34,191 nt of DNA from Erysipelothrix rhusiopathiae (GCA_902772725.1 CACYBS010000351.1:1-34191); one strand, 5' to 3'; positions 4,214-23,224 are shown, counted from the stretch's first letter. Translations and numbers: made by a program. Notes: generated from the sequence alone by a model not told the origin.

Positions 4214-5314
4214 ATGGAAATTCAAAAGATAAATATCGGCATCATTGGATCGGGTGCCATCAGTGGTATTTATCTGGATAATCTTACTTCCCGCTTTTCT
4301 AACGTCCAGGTAAGTGCCATCAGCTCAAGAGGAATGGCTTCTGCTCAAAAGAAAGCTGAAAAATATCATATTCGTGCTCTCACAAATGATCAGATGTTAG
4401 CTGACCCGGACATCGATATAATAGTCATTCTGACACCGGTTCAGACGCATTACGAATTAATCAAAAGTGCCCTGCTGGCAGGAAAACACGTATATACAGA
4501 AAAGACCATGACAGAAACCTATGCCGAAGCTAAAGAGCTGTGTGAATCAGCCGATGCCAAAGGATTGTATTTAGGATCGGCACCGGATACTTTTTTAGGA
4601 ACCGGATTTCAAACGGCCAAAAAGGCAATCGATGAAAATAAGATTGGAACGATTCATTCTTTTACTATTTCAATTACCCGGGATAATGATATACTCACCG
4701 CCATGTTCCCTTTCCTTCGTATTCCGGGAGCCGGAGCTTTAAGAGACTATATTGTTTACTATCTGACAGCTTTGGTTTCCTTACTTGGACCGGTTAAAAC
4801 AGTATCTGCCGTATTAAAAACACCATATGATAAGCGAATGAATTCTATACCGGATACAAAAGGGTTTAACGAAATGATAGATACACCTAATGAAGCCATT
4901 ATTGCGGCTACATTGGAGTTGGAAAACGGCGTTATCGGAACAATCCATGAAGATAATGAAAGTGTGATTTTTGACAGGTCCGATTTTGTGATCTGTGGAA
5001 AAAATGGTTTATTAAAACTTGGCAATGCCAATGAGTTCGGTAATCCGGTAGAATTAATACGTCCGAAAGGATTCTTTGAAAAAGAGACAGAAGTGTTAAA
5101 ACCGGTTGGTTTCTACAGTGATAATTCCCGGGGAATCGGCCCTGCCGAGCTGGCTGATGCGATTGTTCATCATCGGAAAAACAGAACCGATAAAGCGATG
5201 GCTGCACATGTACTTGAAGTCATTGAAGCTATGGAACAAAGTTCTAAAGAAGGACGTTTTATTGAAGTGGAAAGCACCTTCGAGAAACCGGAATTATTTG
5301 ATATGAAATATTAA
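4214..5314 (+). CDS. Gfo/Idh/MocA-family NAD(P)-dependent oxidoreductase
   Basis: The product is 366 residues, the usual family length, starting at the ATG at 4214 behind TCAGGAGG; a longer upstream frame has no such site. The Rossmann fold opens with INIGIIGSGAISGIY (GxGxxG-type), followed by the VILTPVQTHYELIKSALLAGKHVYTEKTMTETYAEAKEL stretch, whose E-K-T replaces the usual EKP. The C-terminal sheet domain includes a GAGALRDYIVYYLTALVSLLGP segment, equivalent to the D(x)H-region of relatives. These enzymes oxidise or reduce sugar and inositol derivatives. It is divergent from the sugar operon and shares its control region, so it may process the imported sugar; the substrate cannot be told. 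A TATAAT hexamer at 4186-4191 is a likely -10, without a clear -35. Confidence 0.88.
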   Translation: MEIQKINIGIIGSGAISGIYLDNLTSRFSNVQVSAISSRGMASAQKKAEKYHIRALTNDQMLADPDIDIIVILTPVQTHYELIKSALLAGKHVYTEKTMTETYAEAKELCESADAKGLYLGSAPDTFLGTGFQTAKKAIDENKIGTIHSFTISITRDNDILTAMFPFLRIPGAGALRDYIVYYLTALVSLLGPVKTVSAVLKTPYDKRMNSIPDTKGFNEMIDTPNEAIIAATLELENGVIGTIHEDNESVIFDRSDFVICGKNGLLKLGNANEFGNPVELIRPKGFFEKETEVLKPVGFYSDNSRGIGPAELADAIVHHRKNRTDKAMAAHVLEVIEAMEQSSKEGRFIEVESTFEKPELFDMKY

Positions 5315-10540: not shown

Positions 10541-11350
10541 ATGGATAAGAAACAAAAATTAAAAGGTATTCTATTGGCAGTGGCAGCCATGATTGTCTCA
10601 CTTGTAGTTTATAGAATTGCGGGAGCTGTTATTGATAATTTCGTTACCAATCGATTTTTCAAAAACTTTTTAGCGGAGTTGTGTTTTGCGATTATGGCTT
10701 TAATGAGTGTGATTCTCTTAAAGAAAACGAGGATTTTTAAAGCAGATAAAAGATTTTTAAAAAGTGGCCTTTCGTCAGCCGGACTTCTCTATGGAGTTAT
10801 AGCGTTTCAAGGCTTTTTTTCGCTGGGGATGCTGTTGAACACAACTGCATCTCTTGTTGAAGTTCTTCTATTTATTGCCTTCTGTTTCCTGATTGGATTC
10901 TGTGAAGAAGTCATCTATCGAGGCTTAGTTCAAAATTCCTTCCATGATTATTTTGGAGAAGACAGTTTAGGACATGTATGGTGTGCACTTATATGTTCAG
11001 CAATCATATTTGGAGCATCCCATTTAACCAATGCCTTACGTCCGGGTGGTGATATCGCATCAGCTGCTGTTCAGGCTTTTGGAACCATGGGAATGGCTGT
11101 ATTCCTTGGAGCTATATATTTTAGAAGTCACAAAAATATTTGGTTACTCATCATTTTACACGGCGTATTTGATATGGTTGTAATGATTGGTTCCGGTATT
11201 CTGGCAGGAACTGATTTAAGTGCTCTGTTAAACAACTATTCTGCAAACTTTATAGGAGCTCTTTTCTGGAATGTGGTATATATACTTACCAGCATATTCC
11301 TGTTACGTCCAAAGAAAGTAGAACCGCTATTGAAAAAAGAGGATGCATAA
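10541..11350 (+). CDS. CPBP-family intramembrane metalloprotease
   Basis: This 269-residue membrane protein has about seven or eight hydrophobic segments and the three motifs of the CPBP/Abi (Rce1-like) family: EEVIYRG with Glu122, Glu123 and Arg127; FGASHLTN with His161; and HGVFD with His207 and Asp211. The enzyme would cut substrates inside the membrane; bacterial members are often linked to bacteriocin immunity or peptide maturation. No bacteriocin gene is near. The start follows AAGGAG. It is transcribed alone, divergent from prdX; TTGACA occurs at 10503-10508 but no good -10 follows it. Confidence 0.88.
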   Translation: MDKKQKLKGILLAVAAMIVSLVVYRIAGAVIDNFVTNRFFKNFLAELCFAIMALMSVILLKKTRIFKADKRFLKSGLSSAGLLYGVIAFQGFFSLGMLLNTTASLVEVLLFIAFCFLIGFCEEVIYRGLVQNSFHDYFGEDSLGHVWCALICSAIIFGASHLTNALRPGGDIASAAVQAFGTMGMAVFLGAIYFRSHKNIWLLIILHGVFDMVVMIGSGILAGTDLSALLNNYSANFIGALFWNVVYILTSIFLLRPKKVEPLLKKEDA

Positions 11351-11356
11351 TAAAAA

Positions 11357-11386
11357 AGGATTGTTTCCAGTTTAAGGAACAATCCT
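11357..11386. terminator. Bidirectional terminator between CPBP and ACT-protein genes
   Basis: GGATTGTT and AACAATCC form a strong stem that extends to AAGGATTGTT with one bulged base. An A-tract lies upstream and CTTTACTTTG downstream, so both converging transcripts can use it. Confidence 0.8.
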
Positions 11387-11389
11387 TCT

Positions 11390-12067
11390 TTACTTTGTAT
11401 CAAACCGGAAGCTTGAATTCTTCAATACTTCTATTGTTTTATCAGCTGTTGCTGCCCTTACAAACACAAAATCATAGTCGAATGTAGATATAAATAAGAA
11501 CTGTATATCTCTTTTCATGAAAACATCGGATATCCTTGCGGCAACATTTACGCGATAGGGTGATTTATCAACATGGATACGAATCGCTTTCCATCCATCA
11601 CTTCTGGAAACAGTGTTTTTTGGAACCATTGTATCCGGACATATTATTGATCTTTGATCTTCTGTTATGCCAATAAAACAATACGGATTTTCTAAATCAA
11701 CAAAGGAATAGTTCTCTACTTTACAGACTGAAAACGCAAAAGGAAGCATCTCAAGGTACAATTTACTTGTTTGTTCACGAATGATTTCTCCATTCAAACG
11801 CTTTTTAAGTTTCAACTTAACTTTTTCATACCGTTCTTCAATTTCATAATCCGGAATCCATATTTTAGCTTCTTCTATTTTCTCAAGAACATTTGTGACA
11901 ATCTTATAATCTTCTTTGGGTCCGGGATATCTTCCGGTTATAAGATATTGATTATGGTAAGCTTCAAACATCCAGTCATTGATTTTTATCTTCTGTTTCT
12001 GTTTTAACTGCCGAAAAGTCTTATTGGTTTGAAGCAGCTGTCCATTGACGCGTTTATGATTTTTCAT
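11390..12067 (-). CDS. ACT-domain protein with an unrecognised N-terminal domain
   Basis: The product is 225 residues. The C-terminal half (about 100-225) resembles the CASTOR/ACT_7-type ACT proteins: LYLEMLPFAFSVCKV, then ENPYCFIGITEDQRSIICP, and the diagnostic ISDVFMKRDIQFLFISTFDYDFVFV (residues 179-203), the region that binds small ligands such as amino acids in this fold. The N-terminal 95 residues are basic and helical, with an IWIPDYEIEERYEKVK stretch that I cannot assign. The ATG at 12067 is set by CCGGAGG upstream. It begins 32 bases after hsdR in the same direction, so it may be the last gene of the restriction operon. A ligand sensor is plausible; a role in restriction is not shown. 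Confidence 0.75.
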   Translation of the reverse strand: MKNHKRVNGQLLQTNKTFRQLKQKQKIKINDWMFEAYHNQYLITGRYPGPKEDYKIVTNVLEKIEEAKIWIPDYEIEERYEKVKLKLKKRLNGEIIREQTSKLYLEMLPFAFSVCKVENYSFVDLENPYCFIGITEDQRSIICPDTMVPKNTVSRSDGWKAIRIHVDKSPYRVNVAARISDVFMKRDIQFLFISTFDYDFVFVRAATADKTIEVLKNSSFRFDTK

Positions 12068-12099: not shown

Positions 12100-15000
12100 T
12101 CAAATCATCGCATTCTTTTTAATAGAATTAATTGTGTTGACCAGTTTTGTTCGAGTTTCCGGATCAAACAATCGAATGAAGTTTACCGGCTTATCAAATG
12201 GAGGTTTTTGAAGTTCTGTTATATTATCAATATAACCGTTCAACTCAACATAATTGATAACCTTATTAATAAACACAATCTGACGCTGATTCAATCCCTG
12301 ATCATTAATAAACTCTGAAAAAGCCTCCATGGCAGCACTATGATCCAACTTTGAAATCTTCCGAATCAATAAACCAAATGGAGTTTCTCCATATTCTCTT
12401 TGATAATCTTCTTTAGTACCCAGTTCATTAGTAAAAATGCGGTCTAGTTCTTCATAATCGGAAGAAGTAAGCGGAATATTATGTTTCAATTTATGGATCA
12501 CTAAATCATCACTATGCTGGCTGATATATTTATTGACCTTTTCTTTATAATCTTCAAATTCATAAGCAGGGGTAAGTATATCTCCTTCCCTTTCTTCCAG
12601 GATGATATCTTTCAAATCTGTTTTTATAATTTTTTCCGGTTCCGTATCGTTCCATAAAAAGCGAATTAGATATCGTAATTCTTTACGGACATTTTCAATG
12701 GCCAATAAATCGTTAGCATTCCAGAAAGCATCGCTCTGCACCTCTTTGATCAAAGGTAATCTTGCCTTAATTTGAGGAACGGTAATCTTTCTTTCTAATT
12801 GACTGGATATATTACATAACTGCTTCTTAGCTATTGAAAAGCTCGGTAACTGTTCCATATCTGCCAACATTAAGCCATACATCAAGTTATCAAAACGTTT
12901 TGCGGCTTCATCCTGTTCAGGGTCATATACTAATGGTGCGATATAATTTGTAAGCTCTTCTTTATCAATATCATTCAATACTGTAAAAGCATCCTCGTTT
13001 TTATATTTTTGAACATATTGACGATTTAGACGTACAGCGATTAATGCATCATCCAGTTTATTCACCTGTGAATAACACTCCGTGATGATTTCATTTCGCC
13101 ATTTTTGGAATTTATCCTCCACAAAAGCGCTGTCCTGCAAAACCATTGCCAGCCGAATCTTTTTTTCAAAAATGGACTCTGTTAATGATTTGACTTTGGT
13201 TCCTTCATATCCATTCGGTGTCTCTCTGAAAAATTCAAAATTAGAACAATAATCAAAGATGATAAACCGCCGTTTATCAATATAAGTACCATCTATTTCA
13301 TCGATGCACTGAAGGCCTTTACATAACCGGGTTCCCCGTCCAATCATTTGCCAGAATTTTGTCTTAGACCGAACTTTTTTAAAGAAAACTAAATTGACAC
13401 ATTCTGGAACATCAATACCGGTATCCATCATATCTACAGATACTACAATATATGGAGGGCTTGCAGGTTTCTTAAAATCATCAATGATTGTCTGGGCATA
13501 GCTGTCCTCACATACTACACGGCTTGCCCATTTCCCGTGATATTGAGGATAAAGTTTATTAAACCGCTCCACAATAAACTCAGCATGTTTCTTGTTTTGA
13601 GCAAAAATAATAGACTTACCAATACGGTCTCCGCCTTCTGTTTTAATACCTCTTTCCATTAGATCCTGTAATACAATATCAACGGTGTCCGCATTAAACA
13701 CAAACTTATTCAGCTTACTTGATGGAATGAAATCCGGAATATAATCATCTTCCGCAAAATCATCTTCATATTTCTGCCTATCCTTTTCATCCAGGTCATC
13801 GTATGTGATGCCTTCTTCCAGAAACTTCATCTTGGTTTCATATGTATAATATGGAACTAATACATGATCTTCATAGACTGCCGTTTCATAATCATACGCA
13901 TAGGTTGGGACATTGACTTCTAAGTCAAAGAATGAGTATGTATTTTTATCAACATCCGTGCGTGGTGTCGCGGTTAATCCCACCAATATCGCATCAAAAT
14001 AATCAAAGATTGTCTTATATTTATGGAAGATACTTCGATGGCTTTCATCGATGATAATCAAATCAAAATGTGCCGGTGTAAACATCGGAAATCCATCATC
14101 ATTTCGTGAATTATCAATCGCATTTAACATTGTCGGATATGTTGAAAATACAATTCTAGCGTTTAAATCGTCCTTATTTGAACATAAATTACATAAAGAC
14201 ATATCCGGTAAATAGTTTTTAAAATCATCCTTAGCCTGGGCAACAAGAGCTGTTCTATCCGCAAGGAAAAGAACATTAGTAACATATCCGGCACGACTTA
14301 AAACATCGGTTAAGCTGGATGCAGTACGGGTTTTACCCGTACCTGTAGCCATGACCAAAAGATTCTTTCTTCCACCTTTTGAGATATTGTCACATACGGC
14401 ACGAATAGCTTCTTTCTGGTAATAACGGTCCGTGATTTTATCATCAATTTGAATAGAGTATAGGTTTTTCTTTTCCTGCCGCCGATTCATTAGTTTTTGA
14501 AGATCGTCTTTACTGAAAATCTGACTCACTTTTCTTTGTGGGGATGTCAAATCATCCCAAAAATAAGTTTCAAAGCCATTGGTGGTAAACATCATCGGTC
14601 TTCTGCCAAATTTTCTTTCTAGGCAATCTGCATATAATACTGCCTGTTGACGTCCAACATTTGGATCTTTTGATGCCTTTTTAGCTTCAATAACAGCCAA
14701 AGGAAGACCATCTTTACCAAAAAGAACATAATCACAATATCCTTTTCTTCCAAGTACTCCACCCATGTTATCGACTTCATATTCAAAGGTAACATCAGCA
14801 TTTACACCTTCTAATGCCCATCCCATATCCTCTAAATCCGTGTCAATAAAGATTTTACGGGTTTTAAATTCAGAAAGATCATCCGCAACAAATGTACGGT
14901 TCTGTATATGCGCTTCTTTTTCCGCTGTTAATTGAGCAGACATTTCTTGAAGTTTTCTTTGAAGCTCTTGAATTTCGGCATCCTTTTGATCAATTAATCC

Positions 15001-15465
15001 TTCCTGTTCCCGGATTTTCTTTTCATCAATGATGACCTCCTTATCAGGAATAGCGTGAATATCAAAGGTACGCTGCTCGTATTCATCCCCATAACAATAT
15101 TCAATCCATTGAATAAACTCAAATAAAGCCTTTAAACAGCATACAGCAACTCCTTTAGATACAGCTTGTTCTGTATGTACAGCACGGTTTCCTGTTTGAA
15201 CAATAATTCTAAGCTTATTCCATGTATTGGGATCTAATTCATAACGAAAAGACTCTTCATAAATTAACGAAGATAAATTATCCCGATATGGCATTTCCAT
15301 ATTAGAATCTGCAGCATATACCCATTTAACAGCTAGTTCTAATGCCTTCCGACATCCTATTGCACACATACTTGGAGACGTGGCATATATTTTTTCTGCT
15401 TCTATACATGCTTTTGAAAACATTTCAAATTGCCTGTTGTTTTCTAGATATCCAAAATTAGACAT
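12100..15465 (-). CDS. hsdR: Type I restriction enzyme, motor/nuclease subunit HsdR
   Basis: This 1121-residue protein is the DNA-translocating and cleaving subunit. Domains in order: a DUF4145-like helical N-terminus (about 10-130), a coiled coil (about 150-185), an HsdR nuclease domain with a PD-(D/E)xK core (Asp245, Glu260, Lys262 in IEAKK), a superfamily 2 helicase with Walker A ATGTGKT (373-379), the DESH box, TATPRTD, and QMIGRGTRLC, then a C-terminal EcoEI-type region. All catalytic motifs look intact. The start is the ATG at 15465 behind AAGGAGGAG. It lies 94 bases downstream of hsdS-1 in the same direction. With HsdM and either HsdS it would cut DNA lacking methylation at the HsdS-specified site. 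Confidence 0.96.
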   Translation of the reverse strand: MSNFGYLENNRQFEMFSKACIEAEKIYATSPSMCAIGCRKALELAVKWVYAADSNMEMPYRDNLSSLIYEESFRYELDPNTWNKLRIIVQTGNRAVHTEQAVSKGVAVCCLKALFEFIQWIEYCYGDEYEQRTFDIHAIPDKEVIIDEKKIREQEGLIDQKDAEIQELQRKLQEMSAQLTAEKEAHIQNRTFVADDLSEFKTRKIFIDTDLEDMGWALEGVNADVTFEYEVDNMGGVLGRKGYCDYVLFGKDGLPLAVIEAKKASKDPNVGRQQAVLYADCLERKFGRRPMMFTTNGFETYFWDDLTSPQRKVSQIFSKDDLQKLMNRRQEKKNLYSIQIDDKITDRYYQKEAIRAVCDNISKGGRKNLLVMATGTGKTRTASSLTDVLSRAGYVTNVLFLADRTALVAQAKDDFKNYLPDMSLCNLCSNKDDLNARIVFSTYPTMLNAIDNSRNDDGFPMFTPAHFDLIIIDESHRSIFHKYKTIFDYFDAILVGLTATPRTDVDKNTYSFFDLEVNVPTYAYDYETAVYEDHVLVPYYTYETKMKFLEEGITYDDLDEKDRQKYEDDFAEDDYIPDFIPSSKLNKFVFNADTVDIVLQDLMERGIKTEGGDRIGKSIIFAQNKKHAEFIVERFNKLYPQYHGKWASRVVCEDSYAQTIIDDFKKPASPPYIVVSVDMMDTGIDVPECVNLVFFKKVRSKTKFWQMIGRGTRLCKGLQCIDEIDGTYIDKRRFIIFDYCSNFEFFRETPNGYEGTKVKSLTESIFEKKIRLAMVLQDSAFVEDKFQKWRNEIITECYSQVNKLDDALIAVRLNRQYVQKYKNEDAFTVLNDIDKEELTNYIAPLVYDPEQDEAAKRFDNLMYGLMLADMEQLPSFSIAKKQLCNISSQLERKITVPQIKARLPLIKEVQSDAFWNANDLLAIENVRKELRYLIRFLWNDTEPEKIIKTDLKDIILEEREGDILTPAYEFEDYKEKVNKYISQHSDDLVIHKLKHNIPLTSSDYEELDRIFTNELGTKEDYQREYGETPFGLLIRKISKLDHSAAMEAFSEFINDQGLNQRQIVFINKVINYVELNGYIDNITELQKPPFDKPVNFIRLFDPETRTKLVNTINSIKKNAMI

Positions 15466-15559
15466 ACGTCTCCTCCTTTTCATAAGTAGTATGATAATAA
15501 TAATTTATGATATTTATATATCGTAATATCCTGGTTTGTAGACTTGATAAACTCGGGTA

Positions 15560-16606
15560 TTATCTTGATTTGTTGATTTGTTTGGCAAATTCAGCAAATT
15601 CTTTCTGAACACTCATGGGTGGTACTATAACAGTCGTTGCAGCAATCACCCCAAGATGTAAATGCTTAACCGCTACACCTTTCGTGCCTTCTTTAAATTG
15701 TTTTTGGATAGAATCTGACCTCAACTGCTGACATAAAAACTCTGGAAGCATTCTCTTCCTGTCATATTTAATTACAGCTAAGCTTTCGAATAAGCCAAGT
15801 TTCTTATCTGTTCTCACAATAGCCGGAGTCCCCAAGGTGCCACTTTTAGCTAGTAATATGTCAAACTTTTCAGTTTGGCATCTTTTCTGTATTTCGGAGT
15901 ACTCTTTATCCGATATATACTTTACATCAGAAAAATTTAATTCCCCATTGACAATGTTTTTTGCAGAAATAAATGTTATTCCTTCATTTAGGTAATGTGG
16001 AGTCTTATGAGTTCCATCAGTTATTTTGTCACACACTTCGCTAAGTTTTAATTTCGGATAATTCGCTTCGGAAAACATCTCTATAAATCGGGATTTGATT
16101 AACATGTCTAATTCATCTAATTCTCGGTGGCGGAGTGTAATAATCCTTTTTATTCTATCAAGAATATTAACTATCCTATGCTGCTCTTTTAAACTGGGTA
16201 AATTTATCGGAAACTCGTACAGCATTGAAAGTTTTAGATTATCTCTAACACTTCCTGTTGCAATAGCTCTGATGAAATGTAACGTAATTTCACTTTTCAA
16301 ATAATAGTATAGATACTGTTGATCAAGCTCTTTTGAAACAGAAAAGACATTATATAACGGACTAACAATAACCCTGTCTTCATATCTTTGCCAATCTACA
16401 GAGCCTACGTTAATTCGTGATGGATTATATGCAAAATATCCTTTAGGAACAATTTTATAGGTTGTTTTGTCTTTACTAGCTACTTCTTTGCCAAAATAAT
16501 CTCGACAAAAACCTTGTGTGTTTGTAACACTGTATACCGGAATATCTTCATTGCTTTTATTTTTTATACAATATTCCCGAATATAATCTCCGAGTCTCAC
16601 CTTCAT
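15560..16606 (-). CDS. hsdS: Type I restriction specificity subunit HsdS (copy 1, shortened C-terminus)
   Basis: This 348-residue subunit has two target-recognition domains (about 1-138 and 180-325) separated by the central helical conserved region with LIKSRFIEMF at 169-178. The second conserved region stops at QINKSR, about 24 residues earlier than in copy 2, so the final helix that pairs with the central one is missing. Both recognition domains differ from those of copy 2. The ATG at 16606 is preceded by a weak GGGTTAA site. The leader TTCGTGTTTATAGGG resembles the leader of the small gene before copy 2. It lies between the HipA-like gene and hsdR. The missing helix may weaken assembly with HsdM, or the tail may be supplied by recombination with copy 2. 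Confidence 0.9.
   Translation of the reverse strand: MKVRLGDYIREYCIKNKSNEDIPVYSVTNTQGFCRDYFGKEVASKDKTTYKIVPKGYFAYNPSRINVGSVDWQRYEDRVIVSPLYNVFSVSKELDQQYLYYYLKSEITLHFIRAIATGSVRDNLKLSMLYEFPINLPSLKEQHRIVNILDRIKRIITLRHRELDELDMLIKSRFIEMFSEANYPKLKLSEVCDKITDGTHKTPHYLNEGITFISAKNIVNGELNFSDVKYISDKEYSEIQKRCQTEKFDILLAKSGTLGTPAIVRTDKKLGLFESLAVIKYDRKRMLPEFLCQQLRSDSIQKQFKEGTKGVAVKHLHLGVIAATTVIVPPMSVQKEFAEFAKQINKSR
16073..16102 (+). repeat. Direct repeat copy A within hsdS-1 (candidate crossover site)
   Basis: This 30-bp segment matches 19518-19547 at 28 positions, including a perfect 18-bp core AAATCGGGATTTGATTAA. On the coding strand it encodes LIKSRFIEMF, at the same codon register as in hsdS-2. Confidence 0.75.
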
Positions 16607-16648
16607 TAAAATTAACCCTATAAACACGAAGATGCTTCTACAAGGTTT

Positions 16649-17779
16649 TTACTTCAATAACAAGCCAGCTCTTTTCTGTATTTCTTTTGAGATTAACTTA
16701 TACCTTTTTTCTGATATGTTATATCTTGGATTTTTCTTTAGTTTGTAGGTCAATAGATGTCGTAATTGTTCACGATTTTTATCAGTCATTACTGCTTTCG
16801 CTTCATCAATGAAATTATCGTATGTACTCGGATAACGAGTTGAAACATATTCATCAAACGAATCTTGTGATTCTAATGCATCTATTGGAACAAAATTAAA
16901 CAATGAGTTACCATGATCAAAAAGCGGAGCCGGTTTAACAATTGTATTTGTGCTGTTATCCACTAGTACCCCAAAATTGCCGAAATGTCTATCTGTGTTA
17001 CAAATTATCGCATCGAATACAATCATTTCATTTAAAGCATCAATAAACTCCGGTCCAAGAGATTCGTAACAATCCCTTACAGCCTGCATTCCACCCGATG
17101 TTACGATTTTACCTACCGGAACAAATGAATAATCTAAACTAGTAAACAATTCACACGTAGAACACAGGGTCCCTTTCCATTTTGATAAACGATACTCAAC
17201 CGCATTAACTCCCATTGCTTTAGCGATTTGAGATGCATAAAACTCAGAATATGGTTCAAAGCCTGAATTTGAAAATCCAGTAACTCCACCTTTATATAGA
17301 TATACTTTTCCATCAATCCGTCTCCAACATTTCGGAAGCATTCCATTTGTTGTAAACTCAGGACTCGATACCAATGAAGTACGAGGTGAAGTTCCATAAC
17401 CAGTAAAGGCAACTAATGCCAAAATATTACTGAATTTATTTTCATAAAGGTTGTATTTTGCAAAGGTTCCTTCAAAACTATCTGTTACTACCCAATAAAC
17501 ATCATTTAAAGACAATCCTTTTGAAACAGAAATAATATCCATAGGACGATTAATACTTAGCCCACATTTATATAGAAAACTATCTACAAAAGCTCTATTT
17601 TTTGGAATAGTTCTATGCTTAATCCAATGACTTAAACCTTCATCTCCTAACTTCATATCTAGAGGAAGGAGATGTGTTTCATCCGTTACCCATAGGATAT
17701 GGAGTCTTGGAGTAGCTGTATTTTCCAGTACTTCAAACCGAATTATCGGTGTATCTTTATGTTTAATAATATAAGTCAA
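16649..17779 (-). CDS. HipA-like serine/threonine kinase without a HipB partner
   Basis: The 376-residue product matches the kinase core of HipA-type toxins: a Lys-containing strand VYLYKGG (Lys163), the catalytic loop NTDRHFGNFG (Asp263, Asn268), and the metal-binding LFDHGNSL (Asp288, the DFG equivalent). The first 100 residues form a separate domain with a KNRAFVDSFLYKCGL stretch, and are not an obvious HipA_N domain. HipA kinases phosphorylate glutamyl- or other aminoacyl-tRNA synthetases and halt growth, usually checked by HipB; no HipB-like helix-turn-helix gene is adjacent. The start is a TTG at 17779 (AGGAGGGG lies eight bases upstream), since no ATG fits. It sits between hsdS-1 and the recombinase gene, inside the segment bounded by the direct repeats. 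Confidence 0.85.
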   Translation of the reverse strand: MTYIIKHKDTPIIRFEVLENTATPRLHILWVTDETHLLPLDMKLGDEGLSHWIKHRTIPKNRAFVDSFLYKCGLSINRPMDIISVSKGLSLNDVYWVVTDSFEGTFAKYNLYENKFSNILALVAFTGYGTSPRTSLVSSPEFTTNGMLPKCWRRIDGKVYLYKGGVTGFSNSGFEPYSEFYASQIAKAMGVNAVEYRLSKWKGTLCSTCELFTSLDYSFVPVGKIVTSGGMQAVRDCYESLGPEFIDALNEMIVFDAIICNTDRHFGNFGVLVDNSTNTIVKPAPLFDHGNSLFNFVPIDALESQDSFDEYVSTRYPSTYDNFIDEAKAVMTDKNREQLRHLLTYKLKKNPRYNISEKRYKLISKEIQKRAGLLLK

Positions 17780-17867
17780 AACAATCCCCTCCTATATCCT
17801 TCAAACTCTTACTGATAATAAATTCTATTTATATGCTAACACAAACCATCATAGATGTTAGATCAAC

Positions 17868-18836
17868 TTAGGCAATATATCTTCGATGCGATGCTTTCAC
17901 ATTACTTTGATTAACTATCGCATATTGCATAGTTGTATCTATTTGAGAATGACCCAATATCTTTTGTACTTGTTCAATAGGCATTCCCTTATCAATAGCA
18001 CGGGTTGCCATAGTTCTTCTAAACTTGTGAGGATGAATCCTTTCCAAATACTGTTTCCGACCTAATTCTCTTAATCTTATTTCAACACCACTGATTTTTA
18101 AACGATCATGTGGAGCATCTAAGGTTACAAATAATGCAGGATTATCGTCATTTCTAGATTTTAAATAATTTTGTAGGTGCAGCTTAGCTTTAGCATCAAA
18201 GTAGACTCTTCTCTCTTTGTCACCTTTACCAAATACTACACATTCTCTTTCTTCAAAATTAATATCATTTCTATTCAGATTTACTAATTCACCAACACGA
18301 ATTCCTGTAGAATACAATAAATCAATTATTGCAAGATCACGAGGACAGTTACAGCTATCACGAAGTTTTTCAATTGATTCATCTGATATTACTTCTTTGA
18401 CCTGTTTCTTGGTTTTGATTTTATGAATTCTATGCATTGGACTCTTTAGAATATGATCTTCTTCTTCCATCCACGAAAAGAAACTAGATATATTTCTTCG
18501 AATATTGTCCACTGTAGCATTACTGCAATTATTTATCTTTTGGTAATCTGCTAAGTACTTTCGAATACATTCTGTTGTAATTTTACGTACCGGATCAAGG
18601 TTAATTTCAAAGAAACGTACCATTGTAGTTCTGTAATATAACAGCGTTCTTTCAGAACAACCCTCAATCTTTTTAGCATCTAAAAACATTTTTAGATAAT
18701 CATCATTGGATACAGATTCATATTTAGGAGTATTATCCATTAGATTGGATAACAATACTTGCTGAAGTCTTTTCAATTGTTCTGCGTTAAGATAATTAGT
18801 CATTTCATTCATTATTGTGTAAATTGCTTGTTCCAT
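17868..18836 (-). CDS. Tyrosine recombinase (XerC/D-like), probable hsdS recombinase
   Basis: This 322-residue site-specific recombinase has an N-terminal SAM-like core-binding domain (about 40-130) and a catalytic domain with every active-site residue: Arg180 (TGIRVGE), Lys204 (GKGDKER), His270 and Arg273 (HPHKFRRT), His296 (LGHSQ) and the nucleophile Tyr304 (TMQYA). It resembles integrases found between hsdS genes in type I systems that shuffle specificity domains. No tRNA attachment site or phage genes are nearby, supporting a local role. The ATG at 18836 follows AGTAGG. It lies between the two hsdS genes, within the direct-repeat bracket. Confidence 0.92.
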   Translation of the reverse strand: MEQAIYTIMNEMTNYLNAEQLKRLQQVLLSNLMDNTPKYESVSNDDYLKMFLDAKKIEGCSERTLLYYRTTMVRFFEINLDPVRKITTECIRKYLADYQKINNCSNATVDNIRRNISSFFSWMEEEDHILKSPMHRIHKIKTKKQVKEVISDESIEKLRDSCNCPRDLAIIDLLYSTGIRVGELVNLNRNDINFEERECVVFGKGDKERRVYFDAKAKLHLQNYLKSRNDDNPALFVTLDAPHDRLKISGVEIRLRELGRKQYLERIHPHKFRRTMATRAIDKGMPIEQVQKILGHSQIDTTMQYAIVNQSNVKASHRRYIA

Positions 18837-18932
18837 ATATTTTGCCTACTTTCTATATGATTCATAGCAATATACTAACAGAACAAATAAAGCGTTCTAA
18901 ATTAATTCTTAACTACTATCCAAATCCTGGTT

Positions 18933-20051
18933 TTATCCAAAGTATTCCTGCATTAAACTATCAAACAATAATTGTGTTTCATCAAGTGATTTTTGTATGG
19001 CATCTCTTGATTTGTCTACTTGACGCAAAAAAACAGAAAACTCTTGTTGTACTTCTAATATAGGTAAAGGAACAATAAACTTTTTTACATCCTTTACATT
19101 AACATGGGCAACTGTAGATGCATTATTTTTTCGTACTGCTTGGCGATAAACATCATCTGATATTAAAGCATGTAGTAAATATTCAGATGAACACTTTGTA
19201 TAATCAGGTCTAAGTAACATGACTCTTTGTCCTAAGCAGAATTTATGTCCTGAAGGTAGAATCGCAGCATTTCCAAACGATCCTTCCCGTGCGTAAACGA
19301 TGTCACCTTTCTCAGGACATAGCCTTGCAGTTCTTTCAAGATATTCTTCATCAGAAACGTATTTCATTGAATCCCAAGAAATATAGCCTTTTTTTATTTC
19401 TGATGTTCTAATTGCAGGATTTTTTAATTCACCTTCATATTTAGGGGTTGTATGCGGACAATCAACAATTTCTGTACATAGATCCTCCACCGGTTTTAAT
19501 TCACATGCGCCTTTGTTAAACATCTCCACAAATCGGGATTTGATTAATGTATCAAGAAGTTCTATTTGTGATTTTTTATTCAATATCATTCTCTGAATTC
19601 TACTAAGGATTTCAGCTATTTTCTCTTGATCATCTAAACTCGGATATGGAACAAGAATATTATCAAAATCCTTCTTCACTATATGTTTCATGGTCGCACC
19701 ATGAGTCATCCCAGCCATCTTATTTAAATTATATTTAACAGCAAAAACAAAATAATCCTTATTAACTGGTGCTTTATCAAAAACCACTTTGAATATATGT
19801 TGATTAAGTAATGCTTTTCCTTGATTCCAAATGTATACTCCGAGACTTGCAGACCAAGAAATTAATACATCTCCATTTTTGATTTCAATTTTCTTAGGAT
19901 AGTCTCCATCATAAAACCCTAAATCATAAGAATTACCAGTTAAATCTTGAATTCTTATGATTGGAAGGCCTTTATCCCCTCTATCACTTGGCTTGAAAGC
20001 ATATCCATTAATATAGGAGGCAAGATCCCCTAATCTAATCTGTTGAGTCAT
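18933..20051 (-). CDS. hsdS: Type I restriction specificity subunit HsdS (copy 2, full length)
   Basis: This 372-residue subunit has TRD1 (about 1-138), a central conserved helix ending in LIKSRFVEMF (169-178), TRD2 (about 185-325), and a complete C-terminal conserved region ending in DAIQKSLDETQLLFDSLMQEYFG. It determines the target sequence for both methylation and cleavage. Neither TRD resembles those of copy 1, so the locus holds four recognition domains. The start MTQQIRLGDLAS overlaps the end of the four-cysteine protein gene by 17 bases, indicating coupled translation. It is upstream of the recombinase and next to the hsdM end of the operon, and is probably the main expressed copy. Confidence 0.93.
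   Translation of the reverse strand: MTQQIRLGDLASYINGYAFKPSDRGDKGLPIIRIQDLTGNSYDLGFYDGDYPKKIEIKNGDVLISWSASLGVYIWNQGKALLNQHIFKVVFDKAPVNKDYFVFAVKYNLNKMAGMTHGATMKHIVKKDFDNILVPYPSLDDQEKIAEILSRIQRMILNKKSQIELLDTLIKSRFVEMFNKGACELKPVEDLCTEIVDCPHTTPKYEGELKNPAIRTSEIKKGYISWDSMKYVSDEEYLERTARLCPEKGDIVYAREGSFGNAAILPSGHKFCLGQRVMLLRPDYTKCSSEYLLHALISDDVYRQAVRKNNASTVAHVNVKDVKKFIVPLPILEVQQEFSVFLRQVDKSRDAIQKSLDETQLLFDSLMQEYFG
19518..19547 (+). repeat. Direct repeat copy B within hsdS-2 (candidate crossover site)
   Basis: Direct repeat of 16073-16102 with two transitions; it encodes LIKSRFVEMF. Flanking DNA is diverged, so the identity is local. The two copies are 3445 bp apart in the same orientation. Confidence 0.75.
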
Positions 20052-20262
20052 GTTTTGACTCCTTCAATTTTAAAAATTGTTTTTTCCATGCACGTGATGG
20101 CTTTCTACATATATAATCATCAGAAGCAAATGCACAGATACCAGGGCTATCTGCATATTTGCATATGTCAGGATTATTAGCTCTACAACCAAATGTTTGA
20201 GTTTCAGAATCACCATCATTTAAAGGTGCATGAAACGAAAACTGGACTTCTTTTATGTTCAT
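20035..20262 (-). CDS. Small four-cysteine protein of the restriction operon
   Basis: This 75-residue protein has cysteines at 26, 34, 43 and 52 (spacings C-x7-C-x8-C-x8-C) followed by a basic tail RKPSRAWKKQFLKLKESK. Four evenly spaced cysteines suggest a zinc or iron-sulfur site, and the basic tail could touch nucleic acid; both are inference. I do not know its family function. Similar small proteins seem to occur beside hsdS genes in Bacillota, from memory and unverified. The start is the ATG at 20262 behind GTGGGG; the gene overlaps hsdS-2 by 17 bases. It is short but its coupling to hsdS-2 makes it convincing. Confidence 0.7.
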   Translation of the reverse strand: MNIKEVQFSFHAPLNDGDSETQTFGCRANNPDICKYADSPGICAFASDDYICRKPSRAWKKQFLKLKESKHDSTD

Positions 20263-20318
20263 AATCATCCCCACAAACACGAATTGTTTAAATCCGTGTT
20301 ATACTCCTTTCTACTTAG

Positions 20319-20442: not shown

Positions 20443-21559
20443 TCATTCCTCTTCCGAATCAAGTAATCGTCTTAAATCATCAACATCCGGTAATGCCTTA
20501 CGTAATTCATCAGGCATATCTTTGGATGTTTTATACGTTGCCACTTCCATTGGTTTGTTGTAATCCTGAATCACATAGTCTACAAATGACTTGTTCATAT
20601 CTTTACAAATAATAATACCAATCGCTGGGTTTTCATGCTGTTTGCGTTCAAAGCCATCCAAAATGCTCAGATATCCCTGCAATTATCCCAAATAAGAAGT
20701 CTTGAACTTTCCTGTTTTGAATTCCACTGCCACTAGACAATTTAATCCTGTGTTAAAAAACAAAAGGTCGATATACTGATCTTCTCCGAAAGCAGATAAA
20801 TGATACTGATTGCGAATGAAGGCAAAATCTTTACCAAAGGTCAGAATAAAGTTTTTCACATTATGAATGATGGCATTTTCTACAACACGCTCATTAACGT
20901 CATGTTTATCTCTTACACTCAGTTCTTCCACATTTATGTAATCTAACAGATACTCATCCTTGAAAGAATTAATTGCTTGGAAAGCCTGCTTTGCTGCAGG
21001 AAGCGTCTGAATAAAATTATTTGGAAGATTACCTTGATGACGGTAGTCATCACAGTCAATGCTATTATTTAAAGTTTCAACAGAAAAATGTTTTTCAGCA
21101 CATCGTTTTATGTAAAACAATCTTTCTTTATAATCCTTTACCTTTCGAAGGATTACCCTGTGATGCGTAAAGCCGATTTGAAAGAATCCCTCTACCGAAG
21201 TTTCTAGATAATTTGGAACTTGTAAGTTCCAGATCTTCATAATTTCCAATACTGCGTATATTTGGTGAAATACAAGGATCAAACACAACCCATTCTTTAT
21301 AGAATGTACACATATATCGAAGATTTCTGGCAGAAAAGCCTATGAGCCTCGGCAATTCTTTTTCCAACTGCTGGCTTATGGCATCAATTGCGCCTTTACC
21401 CCAGAAACCCTTTCTGGAGTTTAAAGAGATGTACTTACCGATTCCATAGTAAAGTGTTAGCTGTTTCTCATTCACTGAACGAGCAGCATTATACTGACTC
21501 TGTAAAATAGCTGTTTTGATTTGTTTCACAGCTTCATCATATTTTTGTATATTGCTCAT
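20443..21559 (-). pseudogene. yhcG: YhcG/DUF1016-type PDDEXK nuclease gene, broken by a frameshift and a nonsense codon
   Basis: The DNA encodes a DUF1016/YhcG-like protein in three pieces. The N-terminal part (MSNIQKYDEAVKQIKTAI... to LSRNFGR) runs from the ATG at 21559, behind AAGGGG. It breaks near 21201-21207, where one extra A in TCTAGAAAC shifts the frame; removing it joins LELTSSKLS to ETSVEGFFQIGFTHH. The second part carries the nuclease core (QYIDLLFFNT, then LVAVEFKTGKF) and is stopped by TAA at 20685-20683, where relatives have Gln (CAA to TAA). The last part (QGYLSILDGFERKQHENPAIGIIICK) continues in frame to 20443. Restored length is about 370 residues, normal for the family. These nucleases often travel with type I restriction genes. 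Two independent lesions suggest the gene is dead, unless one reflects sequencing error. Confidence 0.85.
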
Positions 21560-21697
21560 AATATACCCCTTTCTAATCACAGACTACTACTCAGGAAACC
21601 ATCCTTTCATAATCTGTCGATTTTATAATTTTTCTTTGAGTCAGCGGGTTATATTATGCAAATCTCTTTCTATTGAAAATACATTGTTTATCTGTAA

Positions 21698-23224
21698 TCA
21701 CTTTCCTAACAAAGCTCTAAGCTCAGCCAGTTCAATTTCAACCTGCTTATTTAAATCCTCGATTTCTTTTAAAATTTCTTCCGTTGAAGGATATTCCACA
21801 GGTACATACTCTACTTCTTTATATTTGTTAATGGATAAATCATAATCGTTGTCTTCAATTTCCTTTTTAGGAACCATGAAAGACTGTTCAGTTCTCTTTC
21901 TATCTTTTTCTGCATTCAAATTTCTGAATCGCTGAATGATATCCGGAATATCATTTTCATTAATCTCCGAACGTTTATCATCCAAGCTAAAACCATCTGC
22001 CTTCATATCATAGAACCATACATCATCGGTTCCTCCGGCACCTGTTTTCGTAAATACTAACACTGCTGTTGAAACACCTGCATATGGCTTAAACACACCG
22101 GAAGGCATAGAAATAACAGCCTGTAATTGATGATTATCAACTAATTCTTTACGAATTGACTTATGTGCTTTACTGCTTCCAAATAACACACCATCCGGAA
22201 CAATACATGCACAACGACCACCAATTTTTAACATTCTTAAGAACAATGCCAAGAATAACAATTCTGTCTTCTTTGTATTGGTCACTGCCTTTAAGTTATC
22301 ATTAATACTTTCAGCATCAATGGTACCTTTAAAAGGCGGATTAGCTAAACAAATCGTATACTTATTGGAAATCGCATTCTGCTTGGAAAGACTATCTTTA
22401 TAGTCAACATCCGGATTTGTGATGGAATGTAACATTAAATTCATTGCAGAAATTCTGAGCATTGTACGATCCATATCAAAACCAGAAAACATTGTAGATG
22501 TGAAATGATTCCATTGTTCCTGTGTCATGACATCTTCATAATTCTTACGGATATATTCCGCTGCAGAAACTAAGAACCCGGCAGTGCCACACGCTGGATC
22601 ACAAATTATATCATCCGGTGTTGGCTGTAATAATTCCACCATCATATTTCGTATATGCAATGGGGTTCTAAATTGTCCATTGGTTCCAGCTGTAGACAAT
22701 TTACCAAGCATATATTCATACAGGTCGCCCTGCATATCTAAATCCGCAATATCATTTTCATACAGATCATCTAACCCAGTAATTACCTTTTGAAGAATCT
22801 GTGGCGTCGGTATTAAGAACATGGCATCACTCATATAGCGTGCAAAAGCAGTGCTCTCTTGATCACCATTAGTTTCTGAATGCACTAATTCACCATCCAC
22901 AAAATCCGGTAATACTCCATTTTTCATTTCTTTGATTGCAGGGAAAACTCTTTGTGAAATGATATCAAAAATATCTCTTGGATCTTTATCTTTGAATTTG
23001 CTCCATCGCATGGATTGACCTATTTCACTTTGCGGAAATATTCTTGCTCCGGTTGCACCGCTGAACGCATCAAATGCTTCATTTTGTAACTCTTTTTCAT
23101 CCAAAGAACGAATAAACATCAAATATGTTAATTGTTCTATTACCGTCAACGGATTGGTTACTCCCCCTGACCATAAATCAGTCCATATTTTATCTACTTT
23201 ATTCTTAATAACTCCTGTAATCAT
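21698..23224 (-). CDS. hsdM: Type I restriction-modification DNA methyltransferase subunit HsdM
   Basis: This 508-residue adenine N6-methyltransferase carries an HsdM N-terminal helical domain (about 8-145), motif I DPACGTAGF (209-217) for S-adenosylmethionine, and the catalytic NPPF (295-298). The preceding GQFRTPLHIRNMMVELL is also standard. It ends in a charged helical region (ILKEIEDLNKQVEIELAELRALL) that probably contacts HsdS. Two HsdM and one HsdS form the modification enzyme. The start at 23224 follows GAGGTA. It is the first gene of the island, so the operon promoter should lie in 23225-23470; a TGATAAAAT extended -10 at 23269-23277 on the minus strand is a weak candidate. Confidence 0.96.
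   Translation of the reverse strand: MITGVIKNKVDKIWTDLWSGGVTNPLTVIEQLTYLMFIRSLDEKELQNEAFDAFSGATGARIFPQSEIGQSMRWSKFKDKDPRDIFDIISQRVFPAIKEMKNGVLPDFVDGELVHSETNGDQESTAFARYMSDAMFLIPTPQILQKVITGLDDLYENDIADLDMQGDLYEYMLGKLSTAGTNGQFRTPLHIRNMMVELLQPTPDDIICDPACGTAGFLVSAAEYIRKNYEDVMTQEQWNHFTSTMFSGFDMDRTMLRISAMNLMLHSITNPDVDYKDSLSKQNAISNKYTICLANPPFKGTIDAESINDNLKAVTNTKKTELLFLALFLRMLKIGGRCACIVPDGVLFGSSKAHKSIRKELVDNHQLQAVISMPSGVFKPYAGVSTAVLVFTKTGAGGTDDVWFYDMKADGFSLDDKRSEINENDIPDIIQRFRNLNAEKDRKRTEQSFMVPKKEIEDNDYDLSINKYKEVEYVPVEYPSTEEILKEIEDLNKQVEIELAELRALLGK

Follow-up and report, generated by a model that had tools for sequence, protein, structure and literature searches.

Organisation of the type I locus and its direct repeats

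We analysed a 34,191-nucleotide stretch assigned to Erysipelothrix rhusiopathiae (GCA_902772725.1, CACYBS010000351.1:1-34191; "the window" denotes this whole stretch), taken from a metagenome-assembled genome (MAG) that is 85% complete, which carries a type I restriction-modification (RM) locus with two specificity genes, hsdS_A and hsdS_B, flanking a recombinase gene. On the minus strand the genes run in the order hsdM, a split YhcG-type gene, an 81-aa open reading frame (ORF), hsdS_B, the tyrosine recombinase, a HipA-like gene, hsdS_A and hsdR, and thus include the co-directional hsdM-hsdS-recombinase-hsdS-hsdR layout of the pneumococcal tvr (SpnIV) system. The methyltransferase gene hsdM (21698..23224) matched PF02384, HsdM_N and the PADLOC model MTase_I, and the restriction subunit gene hsdR (12100..15483) matched ResIII, EcoEI_R_C and HSDR_N. 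Both the hsdM-proximal hsdS_B (18933..20051) and the downstream hsdS_A (15560..16627) matched PF01420, and together they hold the four target recognition domains (TRDs) claimed in the initial annotation. The product of hsdS_B has a full C-terminal tail (LFDSLMQEYFG) and is presumably the expressed copy, whereas hsdS_A ends in INKSR and a stop codon and is presumably a silent donor. Between them lie a XerA-like, TvrR-type tyrosine recombinase of 322 aa (17868..18836; PF00589, 3e-34; NF040815 above cutoff) and a solo HipA/CtkA-like kinase of 376 aa (16649..17779). No PADLOC model matched the window recombinase, and an Rfam search returned no match.

The initial annotation had pointed to a direct repeat within the two hsdS genes, here named the M site. 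The M1 copy in hsdS_B (19518..19547, minus strand; TTAATCAAATCCCGATTTGTGGAGATGTTT) and the M2 copy in hsdS_A (16073..16102, minus strand; TTAATCAAATCCCGATTTATAGAGATGTTT) both encode LIKSRF(V/I)EMF. Re-alignment reproduced what had been claimed for them, namely 28/30 identical nucleotides with a leading core of 18 identical bases and shared synonymous codons, one direction and one codon register. A crossover between M1 and M2 performed in silico yielded in-frame chimaeras and a circle of 3,445 bp, in agreement with the predicted frame-keeping exchange and circle of about 3.4 kb; the gene remaining on the chromosome after this deletion is without the C-terminal tail. Given the shared peptide and the codon usage of the window, in which CGA makes up just 13% of Arg codons, the same LIKSRF codons would arise by chance with a probability of about 0.002. 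Within the window alone this coincidence is suggestive and not decisive; related genomes, described below, make the case against chance far stronger.

Two further repeat classes were found beyond those of the initial annotation, one before the genes (T) and one at their 3' ends (E). The T1 site (20265..20286; CAATTCGTGTTTGTGGGGATGA) lies 5' of the hsdM-proximal hsdS cassette and scores 26/33 against the T consensus, while T2 (16612..16633; ATCTTCGTGTTTATAGGGTTAA), at the start of hsdS_A, scores 23/33; shuffled sequences reached at most 21 in either comparison. T1 and T2 have the uncommon block TTCGTGTTT in common. The E1 site (19005..19019; GTAGACAAATCAAGA) is located at the VDKSR motif of hsdS_B, and E2 (15563..15577; ATCAACAAATCAAGA) forms the 3' end of hsdS_A, which stops directly after it. 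All six sites lie on the minus strand and point one way. Both sites of a given gene carry the same two-base variant, TTTGTGG in T1 and M1 and TTTATAG in T2 and M2.

Conservation of the sites and exchange of recognition domains

Relatives of the recombinase were collected by scanning 84,980 species genomes, from which the best 80 loci were kept (more exist). Across relatives the M site stays near AAAGCCCGATTTGTCGAGATGTTTGG while adjoining codons vary, and a search that allowed synonymous codons for the M peptide found 31 sites in 295 genomes, with CGA TTT in 30/31. Concordance of the two sites within a locus was compared with 2,000 permutations for T and M. The CGATTT block of M agreed in 55/55 loci (44.0 expected, permutation maximum 49) and the AAAGCC block in 53/55 (30.5 expected, maximum 40). 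The T consensus AAATTCGGATTTGTAGGGATGA is related to M and, in most loci, is found at the start of each hsdS gene or shortly upstream of it. Its left block, the five bases before TTTGT, varies between loci and is identical within 42/51 of them (7.6 expected, maximum 16), whereas the blocks flanking it showed far weaker within-locus concordance. For the E site, at the C-terminal VDKS motif, the AAATC block agreed within 50/50 loci (42.5 expected) and the codons preceding it within 35/50 (14.4 expected). For both T and M, conservation extends to the DNA level and agreement within a locus exceeds that of the permutations, a pattern that would be left by a requirement for identity across a crossover region or by frequent exchange.

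An alternative explanation is that the two hsdS genes are an ordinary duplicated pair, in which the repeat reflects coding constraint in a conserved helix and any exchange occurs by RecA homologous recombination. The motif is a conserved HsdS stretch, the repeats are short, and the same codons occur in solitary hsdS genes of genomes with no recombinase relative at E <= 1e-60 (G017, G031, G047, G086, G195, G196, G204). Such constraint does not, however, predict T sites with the same core at or before a start codon, whose left block is locus-specific and common to both copies, nor codons that are near-invariant over many families while their neighbours vary, nor a related recombinase between the hsdS genes in 53 of the best 80 loci. 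We therefore regard a plain duplicated pair as very unlikely. Codon conservation as the sole cause was rejected on the T sites, the permutation tests and the near-invariant codons. The initial proposal that the repeats are recombination sites rather than conserved codons gained support from the core being present in T sites that are mostly non-coding and from the excess over permutation; a core fixed merely by codon conservation in all hsdS genes of the family was not what we found.

The two hsdS copies also differ in a consistent manner. Among 66 pairs, the conserved 24-aa C-terminal tail (..LFDSLMQ.YFG) was present in 62 of the hsdM-proximal genes and in 5 of the distal ones, which instead continue with unrelated residues directly after the E site. 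The window fits this pattern, with the tail on hsdS_B and hsdS_A stopping at INKSR. Because the C-terminus is complete in the hsdM-proximal gene alone, this gene would be the expression slot and the downstream gene the donor; the tail-less copy looks like a silent one. The absence of the tail from hsdS_A also means that the product of a simple deletion would likely be poor or inactive.

TRD1 and TRD2 segments are each shared between species separately, often in the opposite slot, and at the thresholds used no TRD1 matched any TRD2. Inspection of 12 pairs from different loci showed an identity of about 0.8-0.97 to one side of M that fell to a gapped background beyond it. Sequence comparison indicates an interspecies reassortment of TRD segments in which the breakpoints fall at M. 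One locus (L180) carries a single 526-bp T-to-M cassette, 99.8% identical, in both of its hsdS genes (4476-5001 and 10971-11496). This locus comes from an Akkermansiaceae MAG, and its recombinase is placed after hsdR. Another (L189, 751-5310) contains a 2,287-bp tandem repeat of 99.96% identity that spans the tail, small toxin-antitoxin-like genes, the recombinase, M and TRD2. The repeat is a circle-sized unit with two small toxin-antitoxin-like genes, and the duplication may represent either a circle monomer that was reinserted or an artefact of the MAG. Both loci are on MAG contigs, for which assembly error is possible.

Recombinase relatives and known switching systems

The relatives of the recombinase fall into two architectures, one with hsdS pieces opposed and one with two co-directional hsdS genes flanking the recombinase. 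The 53 loci mentioned above have the second (hsdM>hsdS>rec>hsdS>hsdR), the downstream hsdS is inverted in 3 of the best 80, and the remainder mostly end at contig ends or are without a recognised hsdS. Cultured strains with the anatomy of the window include Kandleria vitulina DSM 20405, Agathobaculum butyriciproducens DSM 100391 and Lactobacillus hominis DSM 23910. In the recombinase tree all 16 inverting-type sequences formed one clade (98/90), and the window fell outside it, in a large group of 76 rows that are mostly of the direct type. The three loci with an inverted downstream hsdS (L173, L174 and L183) have recombinases of the direct clade and are possible intermediates between the two architectures. 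A second type I system is present in the same genome as the window (L016, contig C313, 4201-12291), with a recombinase 57% identical to that of the window, a reversed half hsdS and an inverted repeat of 26 bp. This genome contains an inverting locus as well as the direct one.

That second locus could be taken to indicate that the window locus inverts in the same way as ivr (SpnIII). The likeness to ivr and its relatives extends to a related tyrosine recombinase between hsdS copies and to TRD exchange in a type I RM system; ivr, in contrast, uses inverted repeats and inversion, and its recombinases form the separate clade. We found no inverted repeats between the hsdS copies of the window and no opposed hsdS at its locus, and the T, M and E copies are all direct. 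Inversion was accordingly rejected on site orientation and the recombinase tree, and its probability is close to negligible.

In pneumococcal tvr, a circle is excised and reintegrated at direct repeats, TvrR is accompanied by a Phd-Doc pair and the upstream hsdS alone is active (PMC6265443, PMC4263131). The window shares with tvr the order hsdM-hsdS-cargo/recombinase-hsdS-hsdR, direct repeats, a tyrosine recombinase, a site at the hsdS midpoint and a toxin-type cargo in the excisable segment. Its recombinase is 56% identical to those of two loci from the order Lactobacillales that are arranged like tvr; these were used as stand-ins for pneumococcal TvrR and carry a Doc-family gene. The site AAATCCCGATTTNNNGAGATGTTTGG is common to the window and the Doc-bearing loci of tvr gene order, and the midpoint site AAATCCCGATTT...GAGATGTTT occurs in both the window and L260, a stand-in for pneumococcal tvr. 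Several features differ, however. The window family has an extra T site before the hsdM-proximal TRD1, a TRD that pneumococcal tvr leaves immobile; the common stretch of E1 and E2 is about 11-15 bp, compared to tail end repeats of about 70 bp; the donor is tail-less; the cargo, a lone HipA/CtkA-like kinase, follows the recombinase, where tvr has the Phd-Doc pair tvrAT upstream; and no attenuator hairpin is evident before the recombinase (fold z-score -0.13). Judged by these similarities, the window most likely operates in the manner of tvr, to which it is related, while the T sites, the short E sites, the tail-less donor, the cargo and the lack of an evident attenuator mean that it is not strictly a tvr locus. 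The mechanism put forward in the initial annotation is in essence correct, but it is of a described kind; what is new is the T sites, the tail-less donor, the cargo and the breadth.

Switching model and embedded cargo

We consider it highly probable that the locus switches by recombinase-mediated excision of a circle and its reintegration at another direct site, in the manner of tvr/SpnIV. The recombinase would act on three short direct site classes, T before TRD1, M between the TRDs and E after TRD2. Besides the recombinase and the kinase, the excised circle would hold one or two TRDs, and it would reinsert at a different site of a class that it carries. Two TRD1 and two TRD2 could thereby give the expression slot four in-frame specificities, each complete with the tail: BB, the present state; AB, through M-excision and T-insertion; BA, through M-excision and E-insertion; and AA, through E-excision and T-insertion. 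This four-state scheme was reasoned from the order of the sites, and the two M1xM2 chimaeras and the product joining hsdS_A to the tail were checked in silico to be in frame. The site orientation and the crossover in silico bear out the initial annotation with respect to direct orientation, in-frame domain exchange and a circle as the expected product. Its deletion mechanism was carried over in part: circle formation is retained, and plain deletion, whose product is tail-less, is probably not the point of the system, which would rather be reintegration elsewhere.

Several observations weigh against switching by excision and reintegration. The source genome is an incomplete MAG, T2 is a weak match to T, no attenuator-like hairpin precedes the recombinase, and common descent of the two hsdS copies could partly explain the concordance of their sites. 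M1 and M2 differ by two bases within the site (GTG vs ATA), and exchange could be slowed if this mismatch falls in the crossover region. The last point, the weak T2 and the split of the neighbouring YhcG gene would fit a frozen or decayed relative of such a system, in which switching was lost after arrival of the kinase gene and divergence of the M core. The recombinase and kinase ORFs are intact, however, with conserved motifs; the left blocks of T1 and T2 are identical, as are those of M1 and M2; and M differences within a locus also occur elsewhere, as the GTC block is identical within 43/55 loci. A frozen locus is therefore unlikely, and we retain a presumably active excision-reintegration system as the preferred explanation.

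The kinase keeps NTDRH..N and FDHGNS motifs of catalytic type, as in HipA/CtkA kinases, and resembles CtkA (3akj, E 8.5e-5). It differs from these kinases in that its HipA_C match (1.9e-6) scores under the curated Pfam cutoff and that no HipB-like partner stands beside it, since no other ORF of at least 80 aa lies next to it on that strand besides the recombinase and hsdS_A. No attenuator-like hairpin was found before hipA. Among the best 80 recombinase loci, HipA-like genes were found only in L144 (between hsdS and the recombinase) and L125 (between hsdS and hsdR), both 60-61% identical to the window kinase, and in L141, a remote relative (25%). A constant role for HipA in the system was rejected, as its relatives lie mostly away from hsdS (that of L062 near another type I system) and so few of the recombinase loci were found to have one. 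The differing position of HipA among these three loci and the scarcity of hsdS beside its close relatives would suit an integrative element carrying recombinase and kinase, inserted into an hsdS array with shuffling incidental. Such an element would not account for a recombinase that lies between hsdS pairs in dozens of loci with or without cargo, or for sites that lie within hsdS, and we regard this origin as highly improbable.

Other cargo at these loci includes DUF3990-type pairs (PDC-M10), HEPN/MNT, Fic, zeta-like, SpbK-like and YhcG genes, and because toxin-antitoxin or defence genes fill the slot elsewhere, the cargo slot appears general. Under the excision-reintegration model the kinase would be cargo of the toxin or defence type and would plausibly stabilise or regulate the excised form, an effect proposed for TvrAT and shown for TvrT; by analogy with tvr, it may retain the circle or restrain the recombinase. 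The initial annotation took a circle-forming version with a kinase to be unusual; a place outside the described systems for such toxin-like cargo is not supported, since pneumococcal tvr/SpnIV carries Phd-Doc in this way (PMC6265443). For defence genes that sit inside type I RM loci, the term "guilt by embedding" has been used (Payne 2024 preprint, cited in PMC12255303). Like these PADLOC PDC families and the RptR/DarTG2 island, the window has toxin or defence cargo between hsd genes: the kinase matched the candidate PDC-M03A (3e-18), and the YhcG/DUF1016 PDDEXK nuclease gene (20683-21580, minus strand), split in two overlapping frames by a pseudogene state or an assembly error, matched PDC-S02. 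Unlike them, the window cargo lies within a segment that the recombinase could excise. Between T1 and hsdS_B, the 81-aa, Cys-containing ORF (20035..20280, minus strand) matches no known family and has its GTG start within T1. A homologue occupies the equivalent position in L151, where the upstream TRD1 and that of the window are 75.7% identical, and the ORF may belong to a mobile TRD1 cassette.

A REBASE survey of hsdS switching searched for inverted repeats, and its text makes no mention of direct repeats or tvr (PMC7394358); a direct-repeat class would therefore be missed. Our literature search found no paper that carries the site or peptide motifs and none that joins hsdS, recombinase, phase variation and Lachnospiraceae. 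To our knowledge, an hsdS switch by excision and reintegration has so far been studied in pneumococcus only. Sister loci were found in more than 50 further genomes, mostly of gut bacteria, which suggests that such reshuffling of defence-enzyme recognition is widespread. We see the chances as evenly balanced that direct-repeat excision-reintegration is common and largely overlooked in type I RM systems of gut Bacillota, that an expression slot with its fixed C-terminal tail, a tail-less donor slot and the three site classes allow each TRD to move independently of the other, and that the excisable segment is a landing place for toxin and defence genes, with the kinase tying cell survival or phage defence to keeping the circle. 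Long reads can be searched for the system directly by its grammar of T, M and E sites, and the locus joins epigenetic switching with embedded toxin or defence cargo. If active in dozens of gut species, such loci would be a source of heritable variation in methylome and phage resistance.

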